Below, one piece after another: positions 20,128 through 30,056 of a stretch of 64,000 nucleotides of DNA. This stretch comes from Candidatus Gastranaerophilales bacterium (lineage in GTDB: Bacteria > Cyanobacteriota > Vampirovibrionia > Gastranaerophilales > Gastranaerophilaceae): positions 1 through 64,000 of the forward strand of contig CALVCA010000007.1 of assembly GCA_944325895.1 (NCBI GenBank). Reading direction: 5' to 3'. The stretch's first letter is position 1; each line of letters opens with the position of its first letter. Both the position numbers and the translations under genes were made by a program. The notes under the pieces were generated by a model. That model saw only the letters and a list, made by a program, of their open reading frames with translations. It was not told the DNA's origin and made no database searches.

Positions 20128-20802
20128 TTAAATTTTAAACGGATAATTATTAGGGATCTTCCATCCGTTACGTGATATTAATGCTACGCAGCCTCGAGAA
20201 CCTGTGTTTTTACATTGTTCTAATTGTTGAGTTTCAGTATATGGATAAAAACTGTCAAATGGTATTATCCCGCCTCTTTCATTACTTGGATCCCTCGATA
20301 TTGTTCTTTCAAATACAAAAAGCTCTTTTCCATAAGGCATTGAGTTTGAAATTTCACTACCGCTCATTAACGCAGTATATGCTTTGTAATATTTTTTTTG
20401 ATTTGTATATGTAAAAACCCGACTATAAGAAAGCACTGCCATATCGCCGGAAGGGAAATATATCCCAACAAACATGTTTTGATTTACTTTGTTGGGTTTT
20501 TGCCCTTCTGCAATAATATAATACCCGCATTCATATTCAGCCTTTAAATACGGGGCAAGATATTTTTTATAAAAACTGCAGGAATCTTCACCGAAATCTG
20601 TCCATTGTCTTTCATCCCCATTTTCAGCGGCTGATAATTTAAATGCCTGATTAATTGTGCTGTAAAATCTTACCAAACCTGTTTCCAAACTCTTTTTACG
20701 ATATTCATATATCAAATTCGGTATTGTTAAAGCCGCAATTATTCCTATTATCCCAAGAGTTATTAATATCTCTGCCAAAGTGAAAGCTTTTTTAGTAATC
20801 AT
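20128..20802 (-). CDS. Type IV pilin-like/pseudopilin protein
   Basis: A 224-residue protein with a short leader (MITKKA) before FTLAEILITLGIIGIIAALT, a prepilin-peptidase site with glutamate at position 5. The globular part has paired cysteines (EQCKNTGSRGCVALISRNGW) and ends in KIPNNYPFKI, closely matching the pilin at 2081, so the two are paralogues. AAAGG precedes the ATG. Its likely -10 (TATAAT, minus strand 20848-20843) lies inside a perfect 22-base palindrome, so expression may be controlled by the divergent XRE gene. Confidence 0.75.
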   Translation of the reverse strand: MITKKAFTLAEILITLGIIGIIAALTIPNLIYEYRKKSLETGLVRFYSTINQAFKLSAAENGDERQWTDFGEDSCSFYKKYLAPYLKAEYECGYYIIAEGQKPNKVNQNMFVGIYFPSGDMAVLSYSRVFTYTNQKKYYKAYTALMSGSEISNSMPYGKELFVFERTISRDPSNERGGIIPFDSFYPYTETQQLEQCKNTGSRGCVALISRNGWKIPNNYPFKI

Positions 20803-25813: not shown

Positions 25814-25841
25814 TTGACAAACTCAAAAAACGAGTTATAAT
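25814..25841 (+). promoter_or_regulatory. Consensus promoter firing antisense to the small hydrophobic ORF
   Basis: TTGACA (25814-25819), 16 bases, TATAAT (25836-25841): a near-perfect sigma70 promoter with no coding sequence directly after it. Transcription would begin near 25848 and run antisense to the ORF at 25885-25959. Confidence 0.75.
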
Positions 25842-25847
25842 GAATAT

Positions 25848-25945
25848 ATAGGGTGGCTGCCCTGCACGGCAGCCTTTACAGACCCTAAATGAAATTAGCA
25901 ATTATTTGCAAAAAATGTCCTATTACCAGTAGGGCATTTTTAATA
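25848..25945 (+). ncRNA. Predicted small antisense RNA, candidate type I antitoxin
   Basis: The span between the promoter and a terminator-like hairpin is about 95 bases and highly structured. The first element nests GGCTGCC/GGCAGCC inside TAGGGT/ACCCTA (25850-25887). The second pairs AAAAATGTCCTA with TAGGGCATTTTT (25911-25940), with one G-T wobble, and runs into a T-rich tail. The RNA is complementary to the second half of the small ORF on the minus strand. The boundaries are estimates from sequence only. Confidence 0.5.
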
Positions 25946-25959
25946 ATTTGCCTTTTCAT
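25885..25959 (-). CDS. Small hydrophobic peptide (24 residues), candidate type I toxin
   Basis: Twenty-four residues: MKRQIIKNALLVIGHFLQII, then ANFI. A basic N-terminus is followed by one hydrophobic helix long enough to enter a membrane, the general look of type I toxins. The Shine-Dalgarno (AAAGGAGGTGA) is among the strongest in the window, five to six bases before the ATG. A consensus promoter lies upstream on the same strand, leaving a leader of about 65 bases. The stop codon TAG is the first part of the stem-loop formed by TAGGGT and GGCTGCC with their partners. A convergent promoter produces antisense RNA over the 3' half. A leader peptide for something unrecognised is the alternative. 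Confidence 0.55.
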   Translation of the reverse strand: MKRQIIKNALLVIGHFLQIIANFI

Positions 25960-26033
25960 GCTCTCACCTCCTTTCCGCCTTTTTTACAGTAAAGTTGTTG
26001 TGCGGTGGAGTGAAAGAGGTCTACCCCGTAATT

Positions 26034-26062
26034 ATTATATAGGGTTGTTTGATTATTGTCAA
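26034..26062 (-). promoter_or_regulatory. Consensus promoter of the small hydrophobic ORF
   Basis: On the minus strand TTGACA (26062-26057), 17 bases, TATAAT (26039-26034). Transcription should start near 26027, giving a leader of about 65 bases before the peptide start at 25959. Confidence 0.75.
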
Positions 26063-26128
26063 TAAAATGAGGAAATATTATTAATAATCACAATCTATTT
26101 AAAAATCAAAAGAGTTTCAATATTATAA

Positions 26129-26140
26129 ATGTTATAACAT
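26129..26140. repeat. 12-base palindrome ATGTTATAACAT
   Basis: An exact palindrome 16 bases upstream of the small ORF at 26156. Its core GTTATAAC also occurs in the MarR operator at 43199-43216. It may be an operator or the -10 region of that ORF. Confidence 0.35.
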
Positions 26141-26155
26141 AATAAAGAGGACGAA

Positions 26156-26260
26156 ATGGATTTAAGTAAAAGATTTTCGCAGATTTTGTATGATTATATG
26201 AAAATACGTATGTTGTCGAAAGAAGGTTATTGTTATGCAAACCGGATGCTGAAAACATAA
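26156..26260 (+). CDS. Small hypothetical protein (34 residues)
   Basis: A short frame beginning MDLSKRFSQILYDYMKIRML, followed by a cysteine- and tyrosine-containing tail ending in RMLKT. AGAGGA lies seven bases before the ATG. It is positively charged and probably helical. No family is recognised. It sits between the antisense locus and ffh, in an otherwise empty stretch of about 85 bases on its 3' side. Confidence 0.35.
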   Translation: MDLSKRFSQILYDYMKIRMLSKEGYCYANRMLKT

Positions 26261-26346
26261 GCTATATATTATATTTCCTTAGAAAAATAAACAGTCTGAA
26301 CTGTAAACTTTATAATAAAATTGACAGAGTTTCGTTGGATTGTTGA

Positions 26347-27723
26347 TTATCTGAATTTACGCATCATTGACATGGCTTTTGTGATGGCATGTTTGCCCAT
26401 TTTTCCGCCAAATCCGCCCATCATTTTTTTCATATCATTCATACCTTTCATCATCATCCGCATTTGTTCAAACTGTTTGATGTAAAGGTTTATATTGTGC
26501 ATATCAATGCCACAGCCTTTTGAGATACGTTTTTTTCGGCTTGTATTTAAAAGAGCGGGGTTAGCACGTTCTTCGGGGGTCATGCTTTGAATAAATACCT
26601 CTATTTTTTTAAATTGTTTTTCGCCTTCGTGAGAGAGTTTTTCACGGTCGTCTTTTGAAATCTTCATCCCGGGCAGCATTCCGAGGATTTGATCCATAGA
26701 GCCAAGCATTTTCATTTGTTTTTGCATTTTTAAAAAGTCATCAAAAGTGAATTCAGCTTTAGCCATTTTAGCTTCAAGTTCTTTAGCTGATTTTTCATCA
26801 AATACTTCCTGTGCACGTTCTACCAGTGAAACGATATCGCCCATGCCGAGAATTCTTGTTGCCATGCGTTCAGGATAAAAATCCTCCAAGGCATTAAGTT
26901 TTTCACCTGTACCGGTTAATTTTATAGGTTTGCCGGTACAGTGAACAATGCTTAATGCTGAGCCGCCGCGGCTGTCACCGTCAAGTTTTGTCAGAATTAA
27001 TCCCGTCAGACCTATTTGAGCATCAAAATTTTCCGCAACATGAACAGCTTCTTGACCTGTCATTGCATCAATTACAAGCAGTTTTTCGTTTGGTGCAAAC
27101 ATTCTGTCAATTATCAAAAGTTCAGCCATCATATCTGTATCAATTTGCAAACGTCCGGCTGTATCCAGGATTAATACGTTAAATCCTTTTTCTTTTGCAT
27201 AATCAATTGAACTTTGTACAATATTTTTGACATCTTTTGAATTGTCAATTGTAAAAACTTCTACCCCGATTTCATTTCCGAGAGTTTTTAACTGTGTAAT
27301 GGCAGCCGGTCTGTATACATCACATGCGACCAAAAGCGGGTTTTTACCTTCTTTTTTAAGTTTTACGGCAAGTTTTGCGGATGAAGTCGTTTTACCCGAA
27401 CCTTGCAAGCCGAGCATCATAATTAATGCCGGATTACCGTTTAAATCTAATGGTTTTTGTTCTTTACCCAAAAGTTCAATCAATTCATCATGAACTATTT
27501 TAATAAGCTGTTGGGAGGGATTTACACCTTCCAAAACTTTTTCGCCTTCAGCTTTGTCTTTTATTGCCGAAATAAAGGATTTTACTACCCGTAAATTTAC
27601 ATCCGCTTCCAAAAGAGCACGCCTTATCTCACGTAAAGCTTCTTGCATGTTGTCTTGAGTCAGTTCTGCTCCACGGGTTTTGCTTATTATATTTTGTAAT
27701 CTTTCGCTTAAACTTTCAAACAT
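26347..27723 (-). CDS. ffh: Signal recognition particle protein Ffh
   Basis: A 458-residue SRP54. The N domain covers residues 1 to about 90. The G domain has GLQGSGKTTSSAKLA (P-loop), DVYRPAA, DTAGR and TKLDGDSRGG. The methionine-rich M domain runs from about residue 300, with KGCGIDMHNINLYIKQFEQM and a Met-rich C-terminus (MMMKGMNDMKKMMGG). It binds signal sequences on ribosomes and delivers them to FtsY. No SRP RNA is seen nearby. TAATAT with an upstream TGT lies seven bases before the ATG, so the mRNA is nearly leaderless. Confidence 0.97.
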   Translation of the reverse strand: MFESLSERLQNIISKTRGAELTQDNMQEALREIRRALLEADVNLRVVKSFISAIKDKAEGEKVLEGVNPSQQLIKIVHDELIELLGKEQKPLDLNGNPALIMMLGLQGSGKTTSSAKLAVKLKKEGKNPLLVACDVYRPAAITQLKTLGNEIGVEVFTIDNSKDVKNIVQSSIDYAKEKGFNVLILDTAGRLQIDTDMMAELLIIDRMFAPNEKLLVIDAMTGQEAVHVAENFDAQIGLTGLILTKLDGDSRGGSALSIVHCTGKPIKLTGTGEKLNALEDFYPERMATRILGMGDIVSLVERAQEVFDEKSAKELEAKMAKAEFTFDDFLKMQKQMKMLGSMDQILGMLPGMKISKDDREKLSHEGEKQFKKIEVFIQSMTPEERANPALLNTSRKKRISKGCGIDMHNINLYIKQFEQMRMMMKGMNDMKKMMGGFGGKMGKHAITKAMSMMRKFR

Positions 27724-29220: not shown

Positions 29221-29919
29221 TTATTTGTTAAATATATATTTTGGCGAACATCCCCACCCTGAACCTGTTTCGCAGTCTTGTAAATAATTTTGCGAATTAA
29301 TAAGAGTACTGTATTCTGAGTTACAAGCATTTATAATATTTCCATGTGCGTTTTCCCAAAATGTAAGCCCATTTTCGGTTAGTAGAAAATAAAATATATC
29401 TTTGCCAACGGTATTTGGTTTTTTAAATCCGTTTACATCTATAAATACTTGATTCAAACAACCGTAATTTATTAATGTTCCATCCTGTAATTGGAACGTA
29501 TTTGAGTTATATCCAGGGTTCAAATAAATCGGTTTTGTATCTTTTTGATACCATTCATTATGCCATTTGAAATCGGTTTTAAAAGAATTGTCGTTTGTCG
29601 GGTCAAATTCATCTGATAATACTATTGAGCAGTCAAGTCCGTTTTTGACTGCTTTCAGATGTTGTGCCAGTTTGCATAAATATATAGGCAAATTTGTCCA
29701 GTTTTCTTCTTTTTGAAAAACCATGTTATCTTCTATTTCAACCATTTTCATAGCTTGTGCAAAAACAGAGTAATTTTTTTTGAAAGCAGCTTTATATTGT
29801 AAATCAGTAATTTTATTGATTAAACTAGGTATTGTCAAAATTGCTATAATTCCTATAATCCCGAGGGTGATTAGAACCTCTGCCAAAGTGAAGGCGGTAC
29901 GACGATTTTTGTCAAACAT
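29221..29919 (-). CDS. Type IV pilin-like/pseudopilin protein
   Basis: From MFDKNRRTAFTLAEVLITLG the protein is 232 residues. It has a prepilin-peptidase site (Ala before Phe, Glu at position 5), a hydrophobic helix, and a globular domain with cysteines near the end (QDCETGSGWGCSP). The frame is open 29 codons further (to 30006), but those codons come from an interspersed repeat (they read RHSERSEES), so the ATG at 29919 is preferred. Neither start has a convincing ribosome binding site; AGGT touches the ATG. The repeat may supply the promoter, or may have displaced the original 5' region. Confidence 0.65.
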   Translation of the reverse strand: MFDKNRRTAFTLAEVLITLGIIGIIAILTIPSLINKITDLQYKAAFKKNYSVFAQAMKMVEIEDNMVFQKEENWTNLPIYLCKLAQHLKAVKNGLDCSIVLSDEFDPTNDNSFKTDFKWHNEWYQKDTKPIYLNPGYNSNTFQLQDGTLINYGCLNQVFIDVNGFKKPNTVGKDIFYFLLTENGLTFWENAHGNIINACNSEYSTLINSQNYLQDCETGSGWGCSPKYIFNK

Positions 29920-29921
29920 AC

Positions 29922-30056
29922 CTACGTGCGTAGCACCCTGAGGCTTTAGCCGAAGGATCTCATTAAGAGATTCTTCGCTCCGCTCAGAATGACGTGTAGA
30001 AGACAATGCAAAATCTAATGTGTCTACGTGCGTAGCACCGCTCCGCTCAGAATGAC
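29922..30056. repeat. Interspersed repeat, one long and one internally deleted copy
   Basis: Copy A (29922-29993) begins CTACGTGCGTAGCACC and ends GCTCCGCTCAGAATGAC. Copy B (30024-30056) has exactly the same two ends joined directly, lacking the 39-base middle. CTACG/CGTAG and AGGATCTC/GAGATTCT form short inverted repeats. The sequence is G+C richer than its surroundings. It is the kind of repeat that yields HSERSEES when translated. Confidence 0.75.

Follow-up and report, generated by a model that had tools for sequence, protein, structure and literature searches.

A candidate new family of chromosomal type I toxin-antitoxin modules in Gastranaerophilales, with a predicted antitoxin terminator inside the toxin codons

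What is encoded between two perfect promoters that point toward each other between ispF and ffh in a Candidatus Gastranaerophilales genome? The locus lies in a stretch of 64,000 nucleotides (the window) from an assembly of 1.69 Mb in 47 contigs. The original prediction, a candidate new type I toxin-antitoxin locus, is supported: the comparative predictions that were run all came out in its favor, and the locus is probably a chromosomal type I module of a new family, where we infer both transcription and toxicity from the sequence. Sequence and comparison among relatives show coding selection, conserved promoters, selection on the antisense-strand hairpin, anti-Shine-Dalgarno pairing and pairing between the mRNA ends. 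The features are as follows.

25814–25841, plus strand: candidate antitoxin promoter, TTGACA-16-TATAAT, 12/12 consensus
25848–25941 (approximate), plus strand: predicted antisense RNA, candidate antitoxin, about 94–95 nt (fold -38.3 kcal/mol, z -5.7)
25849–25887, plus strand: 5' hairpin of the antitoxin, AGGGUGGCUGCC...GGCAGCC...ACCCU, seen in the fold, with a counterpart of altered stem sequence visible in relatives
25911–25941, plus strand: antitoxin terminator hairpin and U-tract within the toxin reading frame, with compensatory changes in relatives
26034–26062, minus strand: candidate toxin promoter, TTGACA-17-TATAAT, 12/12 consensus
25848–26027, minus strand: predicted toxin mRNA, about 175 nt, its ends placed from the promoter position and the 3' hairpin (fold -60.9 kcal/mol, z -4.8)
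26018–26024, minus strand: 5' arm GUAGACC of a long-distance 5'-3' interaction (pairing in cis exceeds pairing between loci)
26002–26020, minus strand: leader anti-Shine-Dalgarno ACCUCUUUCACUCCACCGC, paired with the Shine-Dalgarno in the predicted fold
25964–25974, minus strand: Shine-Dalgarno AAAGGAGGTGA, present upstream of essentially all family ORFs
25885–25959, minus strand: ORF of a 24-residue hydrophobic peptide, candidate toxin, MKRQIIKNALLVIGHFLQIIANFI, under purifying selection among relatives
25878–25885, minus strand: 3' arm GGGUCUGU of the long-distance interaction, beginning at the final stop-codon base (own-partner versus permuted pairing)
26070–26083, minus strand: TAATAATATTTCCT element 5' of the toxin promoter, recurring in the genus

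Both promoters are of the sigma-70 type and exact, with the spacers of 16 and 17 originally read. The plus-strand promoter begins 8 nt past the ispF stop codon, and its 28-mer occurs once within the window and in none of 100 shuffles. From the minus-strand promoter (26062–26034) the order is a leader of about 68 nt, the ribosome site and the 24-codon ORF. Of the 109 related loci collected from Candidatus Gastranaerophilales, 103 have an antisense-strand promoter that matches at least 10/12 positions and lies 37–79 nt beyond the stop, against 1.8% of shuffles. A toxin-side promoter of at least 10/12 stands upstream of the ORF in 38 of the 109 loci (3.9% of shuffles); the predicted toxin promoters are weak in many relatives, which counts against the type I reading. 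An ACTC...GAGT inverted repeat in the plus-strand promoter spacer was considered as an operator and rejected: among the fetched loci only orthologues at the ispF site keep it, and since copies away from that site have lost it, it is taken as chance.

The TAATAATATTTCCT motif has 25 copies in six genomes of the genus, mostly beside family copies, and none in two genomes that lack the family; a few copies flank other genes. It is possibly a cassette edge or an upstream promoter element. Two other TAATAATATTTCCT sites in the source genome are not additional copies of the module. The segment at 26094–26261 holds what is left of an XRE-type regulator (C-terminal ETLLIFK) and a small ORF. The two look intact between ispF and ffh in two relatives (G011 and G015; loci L157 and L156) and possibly represent an unrelated decayed gene pair. 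Elsewhere the window encodes two prepilin-like proteins with the N-terminus AFTLAE(V/I)LITLGIIGI (20128–20802 and 29221–30006, both minus strand).

Is the short ORF a genuine gene? Its presence behind a strong ribosome site agrees with the original prediction, as does its conservation when the peptide is searched for among relatives. Across the 109 loci its length is 23–32 residues, 24 being commonest, and the consensus reads M-[KN]-R-x-I-I-K-x-A-L-x-x-L-x-x-L-L-Q-I-I-x-x-F-L. In 123 close locus pairs the differences at the three codon positions number 535/221/600, and the approximate omega is 0.41 overall, 0.66 in the hairpin codons and 0.25 in codons 18–24, beyond the hairpin; these are estimates without a formal test, as the 123 pairs overlap phylogenetically. 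The peptide is under purifying selection and hence, on this comparative evidence, genuinely coding, while the freer amino acid changes in the hairpin codons are probably due to the same bases serving two products. By sequence it is N-terminally basic, amphipathic and hydrophobic: the C-terminal 17 residues have a mean Eisenberg hydrophobicity of 0.66 and a helical moment of 0.35, the latter above that of about 96% of shuffles. A small hydrophobic peptide, encoded and under selection, as in the type I class, is thus present.

The peptide matches no named family, as was first supposed. Searches of Pfam, NCBIfam and PADLOC with 26 members, and of PHROGs with five peptides, gave no toxin-family match at E<=1, at a sensitivity lowered by the very short peptides. 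A 26-peptide profile against PDB chains returned a lone chance match (E 4.5, an unrelated molecule), a weak test for AapA, which is covered there only by deposited chains. Pfam, NCBIfam, PHROGs, PADLOC, PDB and Rfam thus gave no identity. In five loci (L032, L046, L068, L080, L170) the same RNA chassis carries a second peptide type of 32–33 residues, whose end resembles P-x-L-E-L-L-E-L-F-L-x-S; this suggests that control RNA and toxin evolve partly independently.

The opposite strand was predicted to make a short structured RNA ending in a terminator-like hairpin, and this holds. The predicted RNA is far more stable than its shuffles, as the fold listed above indicates, and the family mean z is -4.6. 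The complement of its 5' hairpin forms the 3' hairpin of the predicted toxin mRNA. The terminator, a 14-bp hairpin followed by the U-tract inside the minus-strand ORF, was missed by a simple terminator scan and is supported by folding and by conservation in relatives. Covariance analysis, proposed at the outset as a check, found strong compensatory change in two independent alignments. Changes on both sides of a pair occur at 10 of 15 pairs in one register (41 loci) and at 9 of 16 in the other (34 loci), and the covariation scores (0.368 and 0.371, versus 0.174 and 0.170 shuffled) are reached by none of 500 shuffles; registers slid along the hairpin score 0.04–0.142 at most. Which strand is being folded? 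Among wobbles in the core pairs, 52 are G-U on the antisense strand and three are A-C (that is, G-U on the mRNA), so selection folds the antisense RNA, not the mRNA. Judged from these substitutions, the hairpin constraint acts on the antisense transcript, as a terminator would predict.

The antisense RNA was thought to be complementary to the 3' half of the ORF. The complementarity stands, whereas its extent is different: it takes in codons 7–24, the stop codon and the 3' UTR of the mRNA, ending short of the Shine-Dalgarno. At the level of sequence, then, the toxin mRNA is matched by a complementary antisense RNA that has a promoter to itself, as in type I systems.

The predicted mRNA appears to be silenced by its own structure as well. 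Over the 109 loci the leader-Shine-Dalgarno duplex has -11.7 kcal/mol versus -8.6 with shuffled leaders, and the predicted openness of the Shine-Dalgarno is 0.16 versus 0.36. In addition, the 5' end pairs with the sequence immediately beyond the stop: GUAGACC faces GGUCUGU in the window, and in relatives the partners co-vary (AGUACC/GGUACU, GUUCCC/GGGAAC, CACGCCC/GGGCGUG, CAGGCU/AGCCUG). Own partners outpair swapped ones and no permutation reaches the own-partner value; when each of the 57 distinct 3' segment types is represented by a single locus, the pairing lies about 7 s.d. beyond permuted pairings. The mRNA is thus predicted to be held shut by the leader anti-Shine-Dalgarno and a 5'-3' clamp, and a primary mRNA made non-translatable by Shine-Dalgarno sequestration, another type I trait, is found in prediction. 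Predicted 3' truncation leaves the openness at 0.164, the same as in the full form, and the clamp may therefore differ somewhat in operation from that of aapA.

How widespread is this arrangement? By DNA search, 25 of 99 relatives have matches. A sequence-only model built on 21 loci found them in 82 of 146 sampled family genomes (28 of 41 genera, up to eight copies per genome) and, for the sample of the whole order, in 120 of 241. Candidatus Gastranaerophilales is an order of Candidatus Melainabacteria, in the Cyanobacteriota/Melainabacteria group; outside the order, model matches are marginal only (E 3e-4 to 8.5e-4). A pattern search of genome contigs returned 13 stretches, titled Gastranaerophilales or uncultured bacteria, and among mobile carriers there was no match in plasmids or phages and none in viral contigs (exact pattern). 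The source genome carries two copies, that in the window and one at G000:C35:7264-7359. Other copies sit away from ispF/ffh, and some stand in tandem at a spacing of about 300 nt (L008, at 601, 894 and 1200). Orthogonality of the copies within one genome was considered and found inconsistent: three paralogues of one genome (G150; L094, L116, L118) have similar hairpins, so cognate specificity is not strict. On the whole we lean, with less assurance than for the locus itself, toward a large, fast-diversifying family confined to Gastranaerophilales, in which toxin helix and antitoxin terminator occupy opposite strands and must co-evolve; the second, unrelated peptide type would mean that toxin parts can be swapped on a retained control RNA.

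The ispF-ffh site itself records gain, loss and decay. The module is intact in G008 and G012 and absent in G011 and G015. In G009 and G010 the toxin promoter, leader and Shine-Dalgarno are lost while the whole antitoxin is kept, with the junction at a shared GCCTTTTCATGC; in G007 the Shine-Dalgarno is altered and a palindromic insert lies at the toxin promoter. Loss of the toxin expression signals with retention of the antidote fits a harmful peptide, as a pattern in sequence that falls short of proof. At the same site, a repeat element with terminal inverted repeats AGTTATGTAGCAAATT lies between ispF and the antitoxin promoter in L152 and L153 (G009 and G010), and L158 has a different palindromic element at the toxin promoter.

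Could the same signals arise without a toxin? Selection and RNA structure show only that both the peptide and its antisense control are important; toxicity does not follow from them, and they would equally suit a small non-toxic membrane peptide, regulatory or signalling, with a cis-antisense RNA tuning its expression. Some toxic-looking peptides indeed prove non-toxic when tested, which counts against the toxin reading; E. coli was unaffected by four of the six candidates in the Microcystis study (PMC12390103). Nevertheless, type I toxins typically show such a multi-copy, patchy, tandem and site-variable spread and such twofold silencing of the mRNA, and decayed copies without toxin expression signals retain the antisense RNA, which makes a benign peptide unlikely.

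A mobile structured-RNA element (MITE/REP-like) or a trans-acting sRNA, with the ORF incidental, would be in keeping with a short, multi-copy, hairpin-rich unit that has TAATAATATTTCCT at one edge in the genus. It is nonetheless very unlikely, given the codon-position bias and the omega outside the hairpin reported above, and the invariance of the strong Shine-Dalgarno and peptide pattern across very divergent RNAs; terminal inverted repeats were not noticed at the module edges on casual, unsystematic inspection. Least probable of all is that a known structural RNA, 6S or small SRP RNA, accounts for the hairpins, tempting as the stable fold and the adjoining ffh (26347–27723) might make it, since other copies of the module lie away from ispF/ffh. 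No credible Rfam match appeared at the locus with either the gathering or a relaxed threshold (the best, below threshold, was a histone stem-loop with an E-value of 0.087), and within Rfam's coverage the 6S and small SRP RNA models were unmatched, so that this way of overturning the original prediction did not materialize.

For the type I module that we favor, the following sequence of events is proposed. A strong constitutive promoter would supply the short, structured, terminator-ended antisense RNA, and the opposing one the mRNA of about 175 nt encoding the 24-residue peptide. The primary mRNA would be silenced twice, its Shine-Dalgarno paired with the anti-Shine-Dalgarno of its own leader and its 5' end clamped just past the stop codon. 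The antisense RNA would then pair with it through exposed loops, over most of the ORF and the 3' UTR, and the mRNA would most likely be removed by double-strand cleavage of the RNase III type; degradation of the duplex is likelier than direct blocking because the antisense RNA leaves the ribosome site uncovered. Should the antisense supply drop, the peptide would be made and insert into its putative target, the inner membrane, depolarizing it and stopping growth. The pairing, degradation and membrane steps are modelled on known type I systems (PMC12390103, introduction; PMC6733600).

Reports of type I systems had been limited to Proteobacteria, Firmicutes and Tenericutes before a candidate from Microcystis appeared in 2025 (PMC12390103). 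Among open-licence papers, weak evidence of novelty as such, none connects Vampirovibrionia with toxin-antitoxin systems or Melainabacteria with type I systems, and two papers that name Gastranaerophilales and toxin-antitoxin once or a few times are unrelated by title and abstract. The candidate family occurs in uncultured gut bacteria related to cyanobacteria, and its multi-copy presence across most sampled genomes in this gut Melainabacteria group suggests that the known type I range reflects search bias. Moreover, the more than 100 loci form a covariation data set for studying the sharing of bases between a peptide-coding sequence and an antisense terminator.

Which known system does the module resemble? 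The original prediction pointed to txpA/ratA or fst, and the type I layout does recur, in about 109 loci, whereas the nearest analogue lies elsewhere. The fst/RNAII pair (par, Enterococcus) likewise has a short membrane peptide and convergent small RNAs and depends on a shared bidirectional terminator and dispersed repeats; the Gastranaerophilales peptides have no Pfam match. The txpA/ratA and bsrG/SR4 peptides of Bacillus are longer than those of the 24-residue family. These pairs are likewise convergent, with an antisense RNA that overlaps the toxin transcript in its 3' part (general knowledge and the introduction of PMC12390103), but here the antitoxin terminator sits within the toxin codons, and there is no Pfam or NCBIfam match. 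The msoT1/msoA1 pair of Microcystis aeruginosa is also a type I candidate from the cyanobacterial lineage (PMC12390103). By their description the Microcystis candidate peptides stand apart, with 39–81 residues versus 23–32 here and two transmembrane helices predicted for MsoT1, which is not shown as a widespread multi-copy family (PMC12390103).

In organization the module is most like aapA/IsoA of Helicobacter and related Epsilonproteobacteria, rather than txpA/ratA or fst. The two belong to different phyla and their peptides have no detectable relation (by the PDB profile search, a weak test); moreover, here, with the anti-Shine-Dalgarno in the leader, 3' truncation does not open the Shine-Dalgarno in prediction. 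They share a small hydrophobic peptide, a cis-overlapping antisense RNA and multi-copy chromosomal loci, together with a leader anti-Shine-Dalgarno and a long-distance 5'-3' interaction in the mRNA (PMC6733600).
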